From an uncultured Flavobacteriaceae bacterium (lineage in GTDB: Bacteria; Bacteroidota; Bacteroidia; Flavobacteriales; Flavobacteriaceae): a stretch of DNA of 64,000 bases. The stretch spans positions 1 to 64,000 of the forward strand of contig CANKUU010000009.1 in NCBI GenBank assembly GCA_947486785.1, written 5' to 3'. The translations under genes were made by a program, and so were the position numbers. Positions 38,397 through 44,768 of this stretch are shown piece by piece. The first letter of the stretch is position 1. Every line of letters starts with the position of its first letter. The notes under the pieces are model-generated. The model did no database searches, was not told where the DNA came from, and saw only the letters and a program-made list of their open reading frames with translations.

Positions 38397-39236
38397 CTAT
38401 TTTTGAACGTTTATTACAACGGCCTCACAACTTTTTAAATCAGAATTTAAAACAATATTTTTTGCAACTTTTCCATCAATAATTTCTATTGAAACGGTAT
38501 TTGGAGGAAATTTACCTAAGTTATGAGCGTATAAAAATAGATCATTCGGTTTTGAAGGATTCAATTTTACCTCGTACACTTTTTTCTTATAATCTAACAG
38601 GTAGTTTGATACCACAGCTTCACCGTTTAAAAAAATAGAAACAACGTCACCATCTTTGCGTCCGTGATCCCATACGTTAATACTAATGTTTTCGCTTTCT
38701 ACGTTTAAGACATCAACATATTTAATACTTCTACCCTCAAAGCTCGATCTTAGTGGTGGTGCTGTTTTTTTGGGCGAATCGCTTATTTCTTTTCCAATCT
38801 TATTTTTGGTGATTGGTGCTTTTTTAATAGTGAATAATGCGGTTGCATACTTTGCAATATTAAATTTATCTTCAGGAAATAATTCAATACCAATAACCCT
38901 GTAGTTGGTGCCAGCAGGTAAGCTTTTATCTAATTTAATGTGAGTTATATTCGTGTTTTTAAAAATACCTAAATCTTGAACAACCATATCATCCTTTGAA
39001 AGGTAAAATTGTATGGTTTTTTCTGAGTCCATATTCAGTGTAGACCATTCAAGCGCAACTTCATCAGGGGCAACCCAAATTGTATTGCTATTAGGAGATT
39101 TAATTTCAAGTGCTGTTTTAACTTGGTGCTGATCAAAATCATAAGCCGCAGTTTCTGAAGCATTTGCTTGTATGTAGCACGAATAAAAAAACAAAAATAT
39201 TAATTTAACCATTGTTATTTTTTTTAAAACTTCCAT
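38397..39236 (-). CDS. Secreted two-domain protein of unknown function
   Basis: 279 residues. A hydrophobic signal (MVKLIFLFFYSCYIQANA, perhaps starting at Met9) is followed by an Ig/fibronectin-like domain (about 38-140, opening LEIKSPNSNTIWVAPDEVAL). After a Lys/Pro-rich linker comes a second beta domain (about 170-275) with the INVWDHGRKDGDVVSIFLNG pattern, which I have seen in other secreted Bacteroidota proteins but cannot assign a function. It is probably periplasmic or surface-exposed. It stands alone between two long intergenic stretches. Confidence 0.65.
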   Translation of the reverse strand: MEVLKKITMVKLIFLFFYSCYIQANASETAAYDFDQHQVKTALEIKSPNSNTIWVAPDEVALEWSTLNMDSEKTIQFYLSKDDMVVQDLGIFKNTNITHIKLDKSLPAGTNYRVIGIELFPEDKFNIAKYATALFTIKKAPITKNKIGKEISDSPKKTAPPLRSSFEGRSIKYVDVLNVESENISINVWDHGRKDGDVVSIFLNGEAVVSNYLLDYKKKVYEVKLNPSKPNDLFLYAHNLGKFPPNTVSIEIIDGKVAKNIVLNSDLKSCEAVVINVQK

Positions 39237-39508
39237 AATATTACAGGTTATAAGTTATCTGCCCGTACTAGACTATACTAATTTAACGAAAATCAAATGG
39301 TCATATTGTAAGGTAATGCGTCGGTTACGAAAAACAAGAGGCAAAATAGTGTCGTATTTAAGGTATTTTTTATAAACATATGGCCTGTTTATTTCGAGCG
39401 TAAAATAAGTGCCATTATTTTGAGATAAAAAATAAACTAAGTTAATGTTAGGAGTGCTAAAAGTATTAAATATTAGTTTTTTTTGAAGTTGACACTAAAA
39501 AGCAGTTT

Positions 39509-39919
39509 CTATTTATTTTGCAGTAATTCTTCGGCCATCGCTATACTGCAGTCTACTTGTTTGCTTAAAGCCTGAATTTTGACATTTTCTTCAGCTATCC
39601 AAACGAGTTTTTGTTTCGATAGGGCTTTTTCTTTAAACATTTCATCTGCCGTAAAACGCTTTCCGAAATCTTGCATCCAATTCATCATAGATTGATTGCT
39701 TGATTTTAAATTTTGGATAACGGTTTGATATTTTTTTGCGTTTTTTGACGTGTTAGCGTAGGGCTTTAATTTAGTTGTGAGTTGCACTAGCTTTGGCATT
39801 TTTTCCATTATTAGGTCGTGCGTTTTAACAACCTTCTGCATTTGACTAGTTTTTTGACTGTAACTAGAAGCGGAGCTAAACAAAAGAATACAGAATAAAA
39901 GAAGTGAAGCTAATTTCAT
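39509..39919 (-). CDS. Small secreted helical protein, function unknown
   Basis: 136 residues with a signal peptide (LASLLLFCILLFSSASSYSQ). The mature part is strongly helical: VVKTHDLIMEKMPKLVQLTT (split across two turns), NQSMMNWMQDFGKRF and a charged C-terminal helix. It resembles small flavobacterial proteins often mislabelled 'viral A-type inclusion protein'; no role is known. The promoter upstream is nearly ideal, so it is probably well expressed. Confidence 0.65.
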   Translation of the reverse strand: MKLASLLLFCILLFSSASSYSQKTSQMQKVVKTHDLIMEKMPKLVQLTTKLKPYANTSKNAKKYQTVIQNLKSSNQSMMNWMQDFGKRFTADEMFKEKALSKQKLVWIAEENVKIQALSKQVDCSIAMAEELLQNK

Positions 39920-39938
39920 ACTAATTTTTGTTTTTATA

Positions 39939-39969
39939 CAAAGGTACTAGCTGTTATACTAGTACACAA
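39939..39969 (-). promoter_or_regulatory. Full -33/-7 promoter of the small secreted protein gene
   Basis: On the minus strand TTG (39967-39969), a 20-base spacer, then TACCTTTG (39939-39946): both Bacteroidota housekeeping boxes at consensus spacing. The start codon is 19 bases further on. Confidence 0.6.
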
Positions 39970-40031
39970 CCCGAGCTAGTTAGTTTAGCCGACAAAAGCA
40001 CTACTTCTATAGATATTTTAAGATTTTTTTT

Positions 40032-40595
40032 TTAAAGTTGCAACTCGCCGTTATTGTGTTTATCTGGTTTTTGCGATTCTGTCATAAAAGTATCTTTTAA
40101 AATAAAGGCTAAAAATATAACAATACCTAAGGTGAGTAAATGTATGGCATAATCCCAATTAAGAAGCTGTAGTAAGCATCCAAAAATAACGCTGAGAGTG
40201 CCTATGACTAGTACGCAATTCCATAAGATTTGAGAGGTTGTATTTTTAACTCTTAGGTCATCGTCAAGAAAGTATGCAGTTCCTTCCATTACAAACCACA
40301 TTAGAAAAGTAATCGCCACCAAGGTTAGGAAAAGCATGCTAAACGGAAATTCAAGAATTGTGAAAATACCATAAAGCGAAAAGAAAAATACTAGCGCTAA
40401 TTTGGTACAATCTACAAAATGCTTGTTTTGTTTTTTTAAAAATCTAATGGGATATAAAATACCCGTAGTTAAAAAACCATAAAACATAATTTCTTTAGCA
40501 TATGACAGTTCAAACATTTTAGCTAAAACGCCAAAAAGAATAACTATGATAGCAATTCTTAAAGGTGTGGTAAGTATTTTTTTAATTTTTGACAT
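40032..40595 (-). CDS. Multi-pass inner-membrane protein of unknown function
   Basis: 187 residues with about five hydrophobic segments (roughly 10-25, 33-50, 65-85, 87-107, 122-165). A faint resemblance to the membrane part of gliding-motility GldL-type proteins (LAKMFELSYAKEIMFYGFLT) was noticed but is not enough for a name. It lies 17 bases downstream of the next gene up (41056-40613), so the two probably share a transcript. Confidence 0.55.
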   Translation of the reverse strand: MSKIKKILTTPLRIAIIVILFGVLAKMFELSYAKEIMFYGFLTTGILYPIRFLKKQNKHFVDCTKLALVFFFSLYGIFTILEFPFSMLFLTLVAITFLMWFVMEGTAYFLDDDLRVKNTTSQILWNCVLVIGTLSVIFGCLLQLLNWDYAIHLLTLGIVIFLAFILKDTFMTESQKPDKHNNGELQL

Positions 40596-40612
40596 AATTG
40601 TTATTTAAACTT

Positions 40613-41056
40613 CTAAATTACTTTTATATAATTTTTAAGACCATCCATAATACCTATGATATTGAAAACGGTTTCTTTTAAATTATGCTTAATTAAAAAA
40701 TGGGGAATTCGAATTGTGGTAAATCCATTTTTAAAAGAATGCATCACTTGTTCTAAATTATTCATGGCCTGCTCATGCGTTATTTGATCATATGCGGAAT
40801 CAATTTCAATATTGAGTTTAACACGAGAAATAGCAATATCTATGGTTTTTTTTCCATCCCACCACTCAAGCATACCAGTTACTCCCTCTTTTTTGAGTCC
40901 GTAGTACAATTGAATAGCTTCTAAAGAAGTTCCGTTCTGAGCTATTAACCGCTCTATTCTTATCCTATGGTGATCACAAAGTTCGATTCCGAGGACGTCA
41001 ATCGAATGCTTATGATCTAAATAACCAAGTTCTTGGTTACATTCTAAACATTTCAT
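40613..41056 (-). CDS. Putative zinc-finger protein with DUF559/PD-(D/E)XK-like domain
   Basis: 147 residues. The N-terminus has Cys3-x2-Cys6 and Cys27 with His29/His30, a possible zinc site. The middle and end (about 68-140) contain KKTIDIAISRVKLNIEIDSA followed by an IRIP strand. The D73...E84-x-D86 spacing resembles the 'DF...kLvIEiDG' core of DUF559/Vsr-like nuclease folds. Catalytic competence is doubtful because the Gly after the Asp is Ser. I infer a nucleic-acid-linked role at most. It is the first gene of a pair with the membrane protein gene. Confidence 0.5.
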   Translation of the reverse strand: MKCLECNQELGYLDHKHSIDVLGIELCDHHRIRIERLIAQNGTSLEAIQLYYGLKKEGVTGMLEWWDGKKTIDIAISRVKLNIEIDSAYDQITHEQAMNNLEQVMHSFKNGFTTIRIPHFLIKHNLKETVFNIIGIMDGLKNYIKVI

Positions 41057-41264: not shown

Positions 41265-42458
41265 ATGTTTAAAAAAATAGGTCCAGGAGTATTAGTTGCA
41301 GCCGCTTTTGTAGGTCCAGGAACCGTTACAGCTTGCACTATAGCAGGGGTGCAATTTGGATACAGCTTACTTTGGGCAATGCTACTTTCGGTAATTGCAA
41401 CTATCGTTTTGCAAGAAATGTCAGCCCGTTTAGGTATTATTACGCAGCGAGGACTTGCAGATGTAATTAAATCAGAAATACAAAACCCAGTTGTAAAAAA
41501 TATAGTTATTGCTATTATTTTAAGTGCGATAGTTGTTGGTAACGCTGCTTATGAAGCAGGTAATGTGGGGGGAGCAACCTTAGGACTAGAAGCAATATTT
41601 GGATCAGAATATGTTTTTATGTATCCAATGATTGTGGGTGCATGCGCCTTTATGCTTTTAAATATTGGAAATTATAAAATTTTAGAAAGAGTTTTAGTAA
41701 CTCTAGTACTCATAATGAGTCTTTCATTTTTAGTAACAGCCATTATTACAAAACCCGATGTAATTGAAATTTTTAAAGGACTTTTAATACCTAAGGTGCC
41801 TAAAGATGGAATTTTAACCATAATTGCATTAGTAGGTACAACGGTAGTGCCTTATAATCTCTTTTTGCATGCCTCATTGGTTAGCGAAAAATGGAAATCT
41901 AAAGATGATTTGAAAGCCGTAAAAAGAGATACGTATATTTCTATCACCATAGGAGGTCTCGTATCTATGTCTATAATTATATCGGCAATTACAATTACAT
42001 CAGAAGAAGTGAAAAACGTGATGGATTTGGCAAAAGGCCTACAGCCTTTATACGGTGCTGCAGCTAAATATTTTATGGGAATTGGCCTTTTTGCAGCAGG
42101 TATCACCTCTGCGATTACCGCGCCTTTAGCAGCTGCCTATGTGGTAAATAGCTGTTTTGGTTGGAACGCAAGTTTAAAGCAATTTAAATTTAAAGTTATT
42201 TGGATGCTTATTTTAGGACTAGGGGTGCTTTTTATGTCTTTAAATATAAAGCCAATAGAAGTTATAAGGTTTGCTCAAATTGCCAATGGTATATTATTAC
42301 CAGTAATAGCTATCTTTTTACTTTGGGTGGTAAATAGAGCCGCAGTAATGGGAAGCCATAAAAACACTAAATTACAGAATGTAATCGGCGTAATAATTAT
42401 TCTGTTAGCAATAGTACTAGGAGCAAAAAGTATTTTAAAGGTAACAGGTATTCTATAA
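41265..42458 (+). CDS. NRAMP-fold transporter linked to 5-oxoprolinase (metal site missing)
   Basis: 397 residues, about eleven hydrophobic segments, clearly NRAMP-fold (IGPGVLVAAAFVGPGTVTA, NLFLHASLV). The two metal-binding motifs of true NRAMPs are changed: the first-helix DPGN is GPGT (17-20), losing the Asp and Asn, and the sixth-helix MPH is VPY (195-197), losing the Met and His. Mn/Fe transport is therefore unlikely. The GTG start of pxpA follows the stop by 1 base, so it is co-expressed with pxpABC. I infer a carrier for 5-oxoproline or a related substrate; the driving ion is unknown. Confidence 0.85.
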   Translation: MFKKIGPGVLVAAAFVGPGTVTACTIAGVQFGYSLLWAMLLSVIATIVLQEMSARLGIITQRGLADVIKSEIQNPVVKNIVIAIILSAIVVGNAAYEAGNVGGATLGLEAIFGSEYVFMYPMIVGACAFMLLNIGNYKILERVLVTLVLIMSLSFLVTAIITKPDVIEIFKGLLIPKVPKDGILTIIALVGTTVVPYNLFLHASLVSEKWKSKDDLKAVKRDTYISITIGGLVSMSIIISAITITSEEVKNVMDLAKGLQPLYGAAAKYFMGIGLFAAGITSAITAPLAAAYVVNSCFGWNASLKQFKFKVIWMLILGLGVLFMSLNIKPIEVIRFAQIANGILLPVIAIFLLWVVNRAAVMGSHKNTKLQNVIGVIIILLAIVLGAKSILKVTGIL

Positions 42459-42459
42459 A

Positions 42460-43206
42460 GTGAGAACTAGCGTAATAGACATAAATTGTGATGTTGGCGA
42501 AGGCATAGGTAATGAAGCTCAATTATTACCTTTAATTTCTTCATGCAATATTGCTTGCACCGGACACGCGGGCACCAAAGCAAGCATTAAAGAGGTGGCA
42601 TTGTTGGCAAAGCAAACCGGTACTAAAATAGGGGCGCATCCATCGTATCCAGATAAAGATAATTTTGGTCGACTTTCTATTGAGATATCTAAAGAAGATT
42701 TAATTGCAAGTATTCAAGAGCAGCTTCGCATTTTTTGCGACGTAATCTCAAAAGAAAATTTGCAAATGCATCATATAAAGGCACATGGCGCTTTATACAA
42801 TGATATTTGTAAAGATGCTGAGCTTGCTAAAACGTATTTAAAAGCAATTTTACCTTTTAAGAAAACTTCCTTTTTATACGTGCCTTATGCCTCCATAATA
42901 GAAAAAGAAGCTTTAAAGCAGGGTTTTTCTATAAAAAGAGAGGCTTTTGCAGATAGAAATTACAATGCAGACCTTTCTTTAGTTTCACGAAAACAAGCGA
43001 ATGCCTTAATAATGGAGCCAAAGAGCGTGTTTAAACATGTAGTGTCAATGGTTAAAAGTAAAGAGCTTTCCAGTATTGACGGAGCTATTATTGCGATACA
43101 AGCAGATACATTTTGCATACATGGAGATACTAAAACAGCAATAGAAATATTAATGTATCTTTCTAAGAATTTGATAAAGCAAAATATAGCAATTGCAAAT
43201 GAGTAA
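42460..43206 (+). CDS. pxpA: 5-oxoprolinase subunit PxpA (LamB/YcsF family)
   Basis: 248 residues from a GTG start. LamB/YcsF family: DINCDVGEGIGNE, NIACTGHAGTKASI, IGAHPSYPD..NFGRLS, HIKAHGALYNDI, EAFADRNYN and IHGDT. Two usual positions differ: HAGD is HAGT, and the 'G.LVPR' stretch reads DLSLVSR. The branch is thus divergent but keeps the main metal and acid residues. With PxpB and PxpC it opens the lactam ring of 5-oxoproline with ATP to give glutamate. It overlaps pxpB by 8 bases. Confidence 0.9.
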   Translation: MRTSVIDINCDVGEGIGNEAQLLPLISSCNIACTGHAGTKASIKEVALLAKQTGTKIGAHPSYPDKDNFGRLSIEISKEDLIASIQEQLRIFCDVISKENLQMHHIKAHGALYNDICKDAELAKTYLKAILPFKKTSFLYVPYASIIEKEALKQGFSIKREAFADRNYNADLSLVSRKQANALIMEPKSVFKHVVSMVKSKELSSIDGAIIAIQADTFCIHGDTKTAIEILMYLSKNLIKQNIAIANE

Positions 43207-43936
43207 ATATTCACTTTCTATTAGACCTTTTGGCGTACATGCGATTTTAATAGAATGGCCTAATAAGGTTGAAGAAGAAATTTTAGACGATATTCTTCAG
43301 TTTAATTTTTATTTGAAATCGAATTGCTTAAACGTTGCCAAGTGGGAAATTGTACCCGCCTACAATTCGCTAACTTTAATACTTAAAGAGAAGCCAATTA
43401 ATTTTAATAAATTAAAGAATAAATTATTAGAATGGTATTCAGTTGCCATTAAAGTTACATCAGAACCTAAATATTTGTGGAGATTACCCGTTTGTTATAG
43501 TTTAGAATATGGTATTGATTTAGAAGAAGTTAGCGACAAACTTCAAATGTCTGTTTCTGATTTAATTCACTTGCATACAAGTCATCAATATACGGTTTAC
43601 GGTATCGGATTTTTACCTGGGTTTATGTATTTAGGCGGATTGCCTAAGCGGTTAGAGGTGGCACGCAAGGCAACGCCAAGGTTAAAAGTAAATAAAGGTG
43701 CAGTAGGGCTGGCGGGCAAACAAACTGGTATATACCCACAAGAATCGCCTGGAGGATGGAATATTATCGGTAATTGTCCGGTTTCAATGTTTAATGCTCA
43801 AAAGCAAGATCCATGTTTTGTCAGAGTAGGCGACAAAGTGCAATTTTATGAGATAGCCCAAAGCGAGTATGATTTGCGTACGATTGAAAGTGAAGTAGGT
43901 ATCTATAAACATGAAAAAATACTGTTAGATGCTTAA
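43199..43936 (+). CDS. pxpB: 5-oxoprolinase subunit PxpB (KipI family)
   Basis: 245 residues from the ATG at 43199, which overlaps the end of pxpA. Allophanate hydrolase subunit 1/KipI family: IRPFGVHAILIEWP at the start, LHTSHQYTVYGIGFLPGFMYLGGLP, and GLAGKQTGIYPQESPGGWNIIG. The last two are the family's signatures. A TTG two codons upstream is also open but adds nothing. It forms the ATP-using carboxylase-like unit with PxpC. It overlaps pxpC by 8 bases. Confidence 0.92.
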   Translation: MSKYSLSIRPFGVHAILIEWPNKVEEEILDDILQFNFYLKSNCLNVAKWEIVPAYNSLTLILKEKPINFNKLKNKLLEWYSVAIKVTSEPKYLWRLPVCYSLEYGIDLEEVSDKLQMSVSDLIHLHTSHQYTVYGIGFLPGFMYLGGLPKRLEVARKATPRLKVNKGAVGLAGKQTGIYPQESPGGWNIIGNCPVSMFNAQKQDPCFVRVGDKVQFYEIAQSEYDLRTIESEVGIYKHEKILLDA

Positions 43937-44768
43937 AGTGTTAAAATCGGGTTTTTACACCACAGTTCAAGATCAAGGTCGTTTAGGCTACCTAAATAAA
44001 GGAGTTCCAGTTTCTGGTTTTATGGATTCTTTTTCAGCATCGAAACTAAACTTACTTTTAGATAATGACCCAAACGCTGCAGTAATAGAGGTAACCATGA
44101 CAGGGCCAACGCTCGAGTTTGAAGCCGATACCTATATTTGCTTTGGAGGCGCAGAATTTTCAATCACTTTAAACAACAAACCTCTTCAAAATTTTAAAGT
44201 ATATAAAATTCAAAAAGGTGATATATTGTCTTACGGCCGTTTACTAAAGGGTTTTAGAAATTACCTTGCGATTAAAAAAGGCTTTAATTCACCAAAAGTT
44301 TTAGGCAGTCGCTCGTGGTATTTTCCGCTAACCAGTCAAAGTCACTTTAAAGATCAAGCGTATGTAAACTATGAAGCTTGTTCAAGTTATAACCCTAAAA
44401 TATCAGAATGGCATATAGATTCTTTTATTGATGAAACCATTTTAGAAGTAACAAGGGGTCCAGAATTTGAGTTTTTTAATCCCAAAGACCTAGAACGTTT
44501 ATTTACGCAAGAATTTTCTATTGCCAAAGACTACAATCGCATGGCTTATCAAATAGAACAAAAAATAAATGGTCATAAAATAAGTATGTTAACGTCAGCT
44601 ACCTTGCCTGGTACAGTACAACTAACTCCTTCGGGTAAGTTAATTATTTTAATGAAAGATGGTCAAACTACAGGTGGCTATCCACGTTTATTGCAACTTT
44701 CCGATAAAGCCATATCTATCTTAGCGCAAAAAAAGTATGGTGATTTTGTATCCTTCAAATTGAGTTAG
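43929..44768 (+). CDS. pxpC: 5-oxoprolinase subunit PxpC (KipA family)
   Basis: 279 residues, somewhat shorter than the 300-330 typical of the family. Allophanate hydrolase subunit 2/KipA features: VLKSGFYTTVQDQGRLGYLN at the start, GVPVSGFMDSFSA, GPTLEF, the RMAYQIE segment and TLPGTVQLTPSGKLIILMKD followed by TGGYPRL. All core motifs are kept, so the shortness is probably loop loss. It is the last gene of the NRAMP-like-pxpABC operon; no clear terminator was found just after it. Confidence 0.9.
   Translation: MLKVLKSGFYTTVQDQGRLGYLNKGVPVSGFMDSFSASKLNLLLDNDPNAAVIEVTMTGPTLEFEADTYICFGGAEFSITLNNKPLQNFKVYKIQKGDILSYGRLLKGFRNYLAIKKGFNSPKVLGSRSWYFPLTSQSHFKDQAYVNYEACSSYNPKISEWHIDSFIDETILEVTRGPEFEFFNPKDLERLFTQEFSIAKDYNRMAYQIEQKINGHKISMLTSATLPGTVQLTPSGKLIILMKDGQTTGGYPRLLQLSDKAISILAQKKYGDFVSFKLS

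Follow-up and report, generated by a model that had tools for sequence, protein, structure and literature searches.

An NRAMP-fold protein without the metal ligands, encoded ahead of pxpABC in Flavobacteriaceae, is a probable 5-oxoproline permease

An NRAMP-fold permease for 5-oxoproline (pyroglutamate) is already known in principle. In Corynebacterium glutamicum, growth on 5-oxoproline requires pxpT, and its deletion was complemented; on glucose minimal medium the deletion strain matches the wild type in growth, whereas on 5-oxoproline it fails, and metal transport was not excluded by the authors (PMC13274462; this and the other papers are cited for the portions of their text that were consulted). 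Among the papers listed by the literature search, taken by titles and beginnings of abstracts, this was the only NRAMP-type 5-oxoproline carrier. PxpT presumably belongs, together with YcsG and MumT, to one branch of PF01566, here called class 2. The subject of this study is class 1, the clade of a protein of 397 amino acids encoded at positions 41265..42458 of the forward strand in a stretch of 64,000 nucleotides (the window) from an uncultured Flavobacteriaceae bacterium (GenBank assembly GCA_947486785.1, contig CANKUU010000009.1), directly ahead of the 5-oxoprolinase genes pxpA, pxpB and pxpC. It has lost the metal-binding residues and shares an operon with pyroglutamate-degrading enzymes, and thus it is probably a pyroglutamate importer. 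Judged from sequence, it would represent a new lineage of such permeases.

Several other groups have been described. The NRMT signature consists of DxxG in transmembrane helix 1 (TM1) and TxxA/T in TM6 (PMC8806188). The Slc11 "orphan" outgroup of Cellier has Y/N in h3, T/V/Y in h6 and A/N/G in h10 (PMC10606218; the outgroup in PMC9606685). One preprint places MntG (YcsG) in "G-motif 3" and calls the other groups, except the NRMT-like one, entirely uncharacterized (PMC12873925), and a second one regards the proteins of its wider alignment as probable metal transporters (PMC13060092). No substrate is assigned to class 1 or to the orphan outgroup in the consulted portions of the literature searched. 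DUF969/DUF979 and DctP6/DctP7 are protein families other than NRAMP. The former (PMC12795558) and the latter, which are receptors of TRAP systems (PMC13274462), have been linked to 5-oxoproline use or binding.

The window protein matches the Pfam model Nramp with 306.5 bits (cut-off 29.8). The sequence-only reading, made from this DNA before any database search, had called it NRAMP-like with both metal motifs replaced, and the residues are as it listed them: GPGT instead of DPGN at codons 17-20 (41313..41324, +), in the unwound part of TM1, and VPY instead of MPH at codons 195-197 (41847..41855, +), in the unwound part of TM6. The gene arrangement was also described correctly. A single base separates the stop codon TAA (42456-42458) from the GTG start of pxpA (42460..43206, +), and there are overlaps of 8 nucleotides between pxpA and pxpB (43199..43936, +) and between pxpB and pxpC (43929..44768, +; ATG start). 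The words "fused by operon" hold for the operon linkage but not for a gene fusion, as the open reading frames (ORFs) of the permease and of 5-oxoprolinase are separate. The start of pxpB, read from the sequence, is most likely the ATG at 43199; the ORF list offers a TTG at 43193.

The three downstream genes encode the subunits of the 5-oxoprolinase PxpABC and form one operon. PxpA matches Pfam LamB_YcsF (259 bits) and exceeds the cut-off of one out of five matching NCBIfam subfamily models (NF003814, 237.1 against 226), and PxpB matches CT_C_D (225 bits) and also exceeds its cut-off (TIGR00370, 168.9 against 145.55). PxpC stays under the NCBIfam cut-offs (TIGR00724, 195.7 against 230.2 bits; NF045499, 162.7 against 500) and is clear by Pfam CT_A_B (224 bits) and position. 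The permease is under the cut-offs of the MntH model NF001923 (172 against 430) and of TIGR01197 (108.9 against 272.5). It passes NF037982, "Nramp family divalent metal transporter" (112.7 against 50), and thus automatic annotation would name it a divalent metal transporter. The window genome is 3.57 Mb long and yielded no canonical MntH; for the permease gene, the named relatives nearest to it belong to Maribacter and other Flavobacteriaceae. The second NRAMP-like protein of the window genome (L073:4663-5919, contig C13; Pfam 51 bits) is very divergent, with AIGTSH and without DPGN.

The motif replacement is real and defines the clade. When NRAMP matches with less than 60 bits to the window protein are left out, the four ligand positions are D/N/M/H in all 30 MntH and all five clade-B sequences and G/T/V/Y in all 22 class-1 sequences, and the TM1 Asp is present in 47 of 47 sequences of four other groups (MntH 30, clade B 5, NRMT 5, DDPSG 7). 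The last of these is a further NRAMP-fold group (L059-L061, L063-L065, L067) with DDP(S/G)G in TM1 and SPY in TM6 in all seven sequences and with the TM1 Asp kept. Of 139 distinct class-1 genes the TM1 region was read in 137, and all of these have GPGT; L137 and L254 lack this region in the ORF read. The TM6 motif of the 139 genes is VPY (126), VGY (7), VTY (5) or VAY (1). The number 139 comes from a stricter recount joining copies of one gene (142 distinct sequences in the earlier count); both counts omit class-1 ORFs under 240 bits apart from G178 (193 bits, TM1 region lacking in the ORF read). Of these genes, 79 were collected with search patterns that include the motif; among the other 60, GPGT is present in 59 of 59 with the region read. 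The 80 named loci were likewise found by motif-containing patterns, and thus their motif counts are not independent, whereas the sample of 247 Bacteroidota genomes was evenly drawn without use of the motif. In view of GPGT in all 137 genes, a decayed metal carrier was rejected.

A phylogeny and a tabulation of the ligands had been suggested with the sequence-only reading, and both set class 1 apart. In a tree of 70 rows with the motifs masked, a single branch separates the 46 class-1 sequences from all other rows (bootstrap 100; Shimodaira-Hasegawa-like approximate likelihood ratio test, SH-aLRT, 98); eight rows, namely class 2 and the long-branch L073 and L162, were left out of this tree. Positions Y96, N100, T192, V195, Y197, A337 and N341 are invariant in 22 of 22 class-1 sequences, and G342 is present in 21. 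For TM3 the register was set by eye, guided by the conserved Glu and a spacing of four; in this region the MAFFT alignment is shifted by approximately three residues. This is the pattern of the orphan outgroup (Y96, N100; T192, V195, Y197; A337, N341, G342), and on this residue pattern the two groups are likely to be the same.

The AlphaFold2 model of the window protein (41 sequences; predicted local distance difference test 85.3, predicted template modelling score 0.86) has helix breaks at residues 16-17 and 194-195, coinciding with the replaced motifs. The closest solved fold for this predicted model is DraNramp (6d91; Z 50.4, root-mean-square deviation (rmsd) 2.3, 385 aligned residues), followed by EleNRMT (7qia, Z 44.8), KimA (31.4) and the APC-type AdiC and ApcT (Z about 29-30). 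The window protein resembles the canonical Slc11/NRAMP proteins (MntH, clade B) in the fold and in 27.8-32.2% identity, but has neither DPGN nor MPH and scores below the MntH and TIGR01197 cut-offs. NRMT-like sequences have the same fold and are 30.3-34.0% identical to it; unlike the window protein, they retain the TM1 Asp (DAGG) and have A/T-P-W in TM6. In place of the NRMT signature the window protein has GxxT in TM1 and TxxV in TM6.

The window protein and class 2 have in common the NRAMP fold, a replaced TM1 Asp and a pxp or pxp-like operon (42460-44768 in the window), and the 11 class-2 proteins share with class 1 GPG in TM1, GN in TM3, Tyr in TM6 and Asn in TM10. However, class 2 has GPGF or GPGI in TM1, GGTVGGY in TM6 and no TM3 Glu, whereas the window protein has GPGT and GTTVVPY. 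The identity of the window protein to six class-2 proteins is 22.5-26.9%, compared with 31.4-73.6% to 45 other class-1 rows (MAFFT). The identity to YcsG (9a52_A) is 20%, a structure-based value that runs a few points below the MAFFT ones; phmmer searches of the PDB sequences with the window protein and with two class-2 proteins failed to retrieve YcsG, and thus YcsG was compared only via the structure entry 9a52. When class 2 is added (56 rows), its rows form one side of a branch (SH-aLRT 100) with the window protein outside. Class 1 and class 2 are on one side of this tree, with weak support (89) and a long branch. The window protein appears to lie outside the YcsG/PxpT/MumT branch; an orthologue of PxpT or YcsG was rejected as a candidate, given the 20% identity to YcsG and the separate tree group.

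The genes of class 1 are closely linked to pxpABC. A profile of 12 class-1 proteins, applied to the 247 Bacteroidota genomes with a threshold of at least 193 bits (the first match under it, at 192 bits, is the NRMT-type protein L055), found a class-1 gene in 54 genomes; PxpA above the cut-off is present in 51 of the 247. Among the 30 closest class-1 genes, which score 563-668 bits and include that of the window, 29 are at most 3 kb from pxpA on the same strand, the exception being G053, and in 27 of these 29 the matched stretches of the permease and pxpA are 11 to 26 bases apart. The rough chance of such a neighbourhood for one gene is about 0.0009, and with pxpA adjoining in 29 of 30 cases a chance neighbourhood was rejected. 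At the 80 named Flavobacteriaceae loci, pxp genes are present in the stretch in 77 (all except L091, L094 and L130). Each of the 54 class-1 genomes encodes PxpA (39) or HyuB (15), none encodes both, and either is found in 32 of the 193 other genomes. In contrast, PxpA or HyuB is present in 10 of 88 genomes with canonical MntH, defined by a best Pfam Nramp E-value below 1e-105 among Bacteroidota matches listed down to approximately 265 bits. The earlier suggestion of a permease feeding PxpABC with 5-oxoproline or a related lactam is thus supported by linkage and co-occurrence.

The partner enzyme is not the same everywhere. On haloarchaeal plasmids, hyuA is located directly downstream of the class-1 gene in six of the seven loci read (L154-L158, L164), where the class-1 proteins are 41.7-46.4% identical to the window protein. 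In five of these loci hyuB follows hyuA, and the record of L157 ends inside hyuA. A gene for a CopG-type regulator is upstream in L154-L158 and L160. The L154 proteins are Hydantoinase_A and Hydantoinase_B by Pfam, families other than those of PxpABC, so that class 1 is linked to two unrelated enzymes of lactam-opening type. These loci come from plasmid scans of 186 records (27 in a second scan), with 11 regions read; a scan of viral contigs returned no relatives of the window protein. HyuA or HyuB is also encoded close to distant class-1 genes of Bacteroidota (L232, L237, L239, L241-L244, L251, L252), and in G171 a HyuB match is about 5 kb from the class-1 gene. The permease gene of L232 overlaps one for a 1279-residue protein made up of Hydant_A_N, Hydantoinase_A, Hydant_A_C and Hydantoinase_B, which we take to be the size and architecture of the eukaryotic-type 5-oxoprolinase. 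A single change between the pxp and hyu partners suffices for the tree, and therefore several independent swaps are not claimed. Two transporter types occur in one cluster at L242 (4987-7589), where the class-1 permease gene next to hyuAB has a TRAP DctM gene as its neighbour.

A gene of the DUF2891 family is a second recurrent neighbour: 43 of the 80 named loci (L074-L153) have one upstream of the permease gene and on its strand, and in 40 of these 43 it overlaps or lies within 240 bp. It also occurs in L232 (10227-11513), beyond the fused HyuA-HyuB gene, and was not found in the window genome. The predicted fold of the L091 protein matches Cj0554 of Campylobacter jejuni (8iev; Z 37.7, rmsd 2.5, 320 aligned residues). 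The cj0552-4 mutant of C. jejuni (DUF969, DUF979, DUF2891) lost 5-oxoproline use (PMC12795558), and the make-up of this cluster means that DUF2891 there accompanies a different candidate 5-oxoproline transporter. An early cysteine, C19, is invariant in 28 of 28 aligned DUF2891 sequences and resembles a lipoprotein signal. The DUF2891 protein may act in the release or capture of pyroglutamate outside the cell.

Class 2 occupies pxp operons as well. Among the 51 PxpA loci, all of which were read, another NRAMP-fold gene stands beside pxpA in six (L195-L198, L200, L202); its products have GPGF in TM1 and GGTVGGY in TM6. A later plasmid scan gave 168 records, of which five were read. Plasmid relatives in L247, L248 and L250 have as neighbours PxpA and a "putative hydro-lyase", and the one in L249 lies a few kb from pxpA and pxpB. 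The refuting outcome named with the sequence-only reading, pxp-linked homologues that mostly keep DPGN and MPH, did not appear: neither motif is retained in any class-1 homologue read or in any of the 11 class-2 proteins, ten of which are encoded beside or near pxp genes. The eleventh is from Acinetobacter baumannii (NZ_CP104448.1). Its locus (L246:5663-13124) contains genes for LysR-like, NRAMP, PxpA-like, hydro-lyase (named by place only), PxpB-PxpC-like and biotin-carboxylase-like (by the first residues) proteins, an order that agrees with the published one of mumR, mumT, mumL, mumU, mumH and mumC (PMC5050338). In the position of MumT, the NRAMP protein lacks Asp, Asn and Met where the metal ligands would be. 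This mum-like operon encodes PxpA/PxpB/PxpC-like proteins, and the "urea carboxylase" and manganese readings deserve re-examination.

On this comparative evidence, the window protein is probably a secondary permease with the LeuT fold, from the NRAMP superfamily, that supplies PxpABC by importing 5-oxo-L-proline or a lactam or cyclic amide close to it. In amino-acid carriers of the APC type, backbone amides of a Gly-x-Gly motif bind the carboxylate of the substrate. In the window protein, the Asp to Gly and Asn to Thr replacements leave Gly-Pro-Gly at the TM1 helix break, and the 5-oxoproline carboxylate may sit there. The lactam ring could be held by N100 (TM3), Y197 (TM6) and N341 (TM10), and the retained E97 (TM3) could carry a coupling proton. 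The imported 5-oxoproline would then be opened to glutamate by PxpABC with ATP.

The observations that weigh against 5-oxoproline import concern the linkage, the enzymes and the metal site. Firstly, pxpA is nearby for 29 of the 54 class-1 genes and HyuA or HyuB is within about 5 kb for 10, leaving 15 with neither nearby; in L226-L228 pxpA is elsewhere in the genome. Among the eight class-1 plasmid loci read, haloarchaeal L160 (39.5% identical to the window protein) has no HyuA, and L159 from a Pseudoalteromonas plasmid has neither enzyme. In genome G182, pxpABC has the gene order of the window without the permease gene, and thus the enzyme is not dependent on the permease. The Fisher test for the co-occurrence of class 1 and the enzymes gives p 3e-32, a value that ignores phylogeny in a set of 27 genera. 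In the 56-row tree the SH-aLRT of class 1 as one group is only 82.

Secondly, the neighbourhoods leave some room, albeit an unlikely alternative, for a related organic solute, such as gamma-glutamyl amino acids or peptides, hydantoins, glutamate or proline. In the locus of G053 (L053) the order is DUF2891, the permease and gamma-glutamyltranspeptidase (L053:5296-7029), with pxpABC elsewhere. Hydantoinase-type HyuAB and racemase or decarboxylase-like proteins are also encoded near class-1 genes. Published HyuAB-type proteins include hydantoinases, caprolactamases and carboxylases, and thus HyuB is no proof of 5-oxoprolinase. The genes of L229-L231, with VTY or VAY in TM6, adjoin a gene pair similar to 2-oxoacid:ferredoxin oxidoreductase (the Pfam scan covered the pair of L229). 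However, 5-oxoproline is the sole substrate that fits the clusters with PxpABC, with fused HyuA-HyuB and with DUF2891 together.

Finally, class 1 could still import divalent metal through a rebuilt site and so supply Mn or Mg to the ATP-dependent 5-oxoprolinase, as was proposed for MumT and the enzymes of its operon. YcsG and MumT are NRAMP-fold proteins from pxp or pxp-like operons, and both have been reported as Mn importers: Mn accumulates upon overproduction of YcsG, renamed MntG from this and from mutant combinations (PMC10448178), and the mumT deletion lowers Mn and was complemented (PMC5050338). The loss of ligands in class 2 conflicts with these assignments. E97 is kept in 21 of 22 class-1 sequences, and its equivalent in BfraNramp contacts Mn (PMC12873925). 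Canonical MntH and class 1 occur together in only two genomes, and 52 of the 54 class-1 genomes have no canonical MntH, so that the distribution alone is compatible with the replacement of a metal importer. However, MntH is also absent from some related genomes without class 1 (G103, G182, G198). All four side-chain positions are changed in class 1, whereas the TM1 Asp is kept throughout the other groups compared, and the D56G substitution in DraNramp, equal to the Asp to Gly change here, is reported to abolish Mn transport by itself (PMC13060092). The normal growth of the pxpT deletion strain on glucose minimal medium and its failure on 5-oxoproline also argue against the metal role (PMC13274462), which we consider improbable. 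Export of 5-oxoproline or glutamate as overflow of internal damage products is highly improbable: the direction of transport is not readable from sequence and PxpABC also recovers 5-oxoproline formed inside cells (PMC13274462), but an exporter sharing an operon with the catabolic enzyme for its own substrate would be wasteful, and PxpT is needed for growth on external 5-oxoproline.

The proposed assignment of class 1 as a 5-oxoproline permease gives a concrete substrate hypothesis for a branch of NRAMP that has been called an orphan outgroup or uncharacterized and is named a divalent metal transporter in databases. It also makes a conflict testable, as related genes in operons of the same type are reported to encode an Mn importer (YcsG/MntG, MumT) or a 5-oxoproline permease (PxpT). 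The expectation that a subgroup of NRAMP-fold carriers for organic substrates would be notable holds in part: class 1 is apparently a different branch, but such a carrier has already been reported, PxpT of C. glutamicum (PMC13274462). A wider proposal, which we make tentatively and at somewhat less than even odds, is that the Asp-less NRAMP branches (class 1 and the YcsG/PxpT/MumT branch) form a large bacterial and haloarchaeal group carrying 5-oxoproline or related lactams, the TM1 Gly-Pro-Gly binding a carboxylate where metal carriers bind the cation. If so, organic anions would be the substrates of sequences at present regarded as probable metal transporters, and indirect effects would account for the assignment of Mn to MntG and MumT. 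One fold would then have switched between a metal cation and an organic anion through a handful of site residues, making a clean system for the evolution of specificity.

Upstream of the permease gene, at 38397-41056 on the opposite strand, there are four ORFs for which Pfam gave no match. Look-alikes of two of these occupy the corresponding position in the G182 locus (L209), which itself represents a natural loss or absence of the permease gene.

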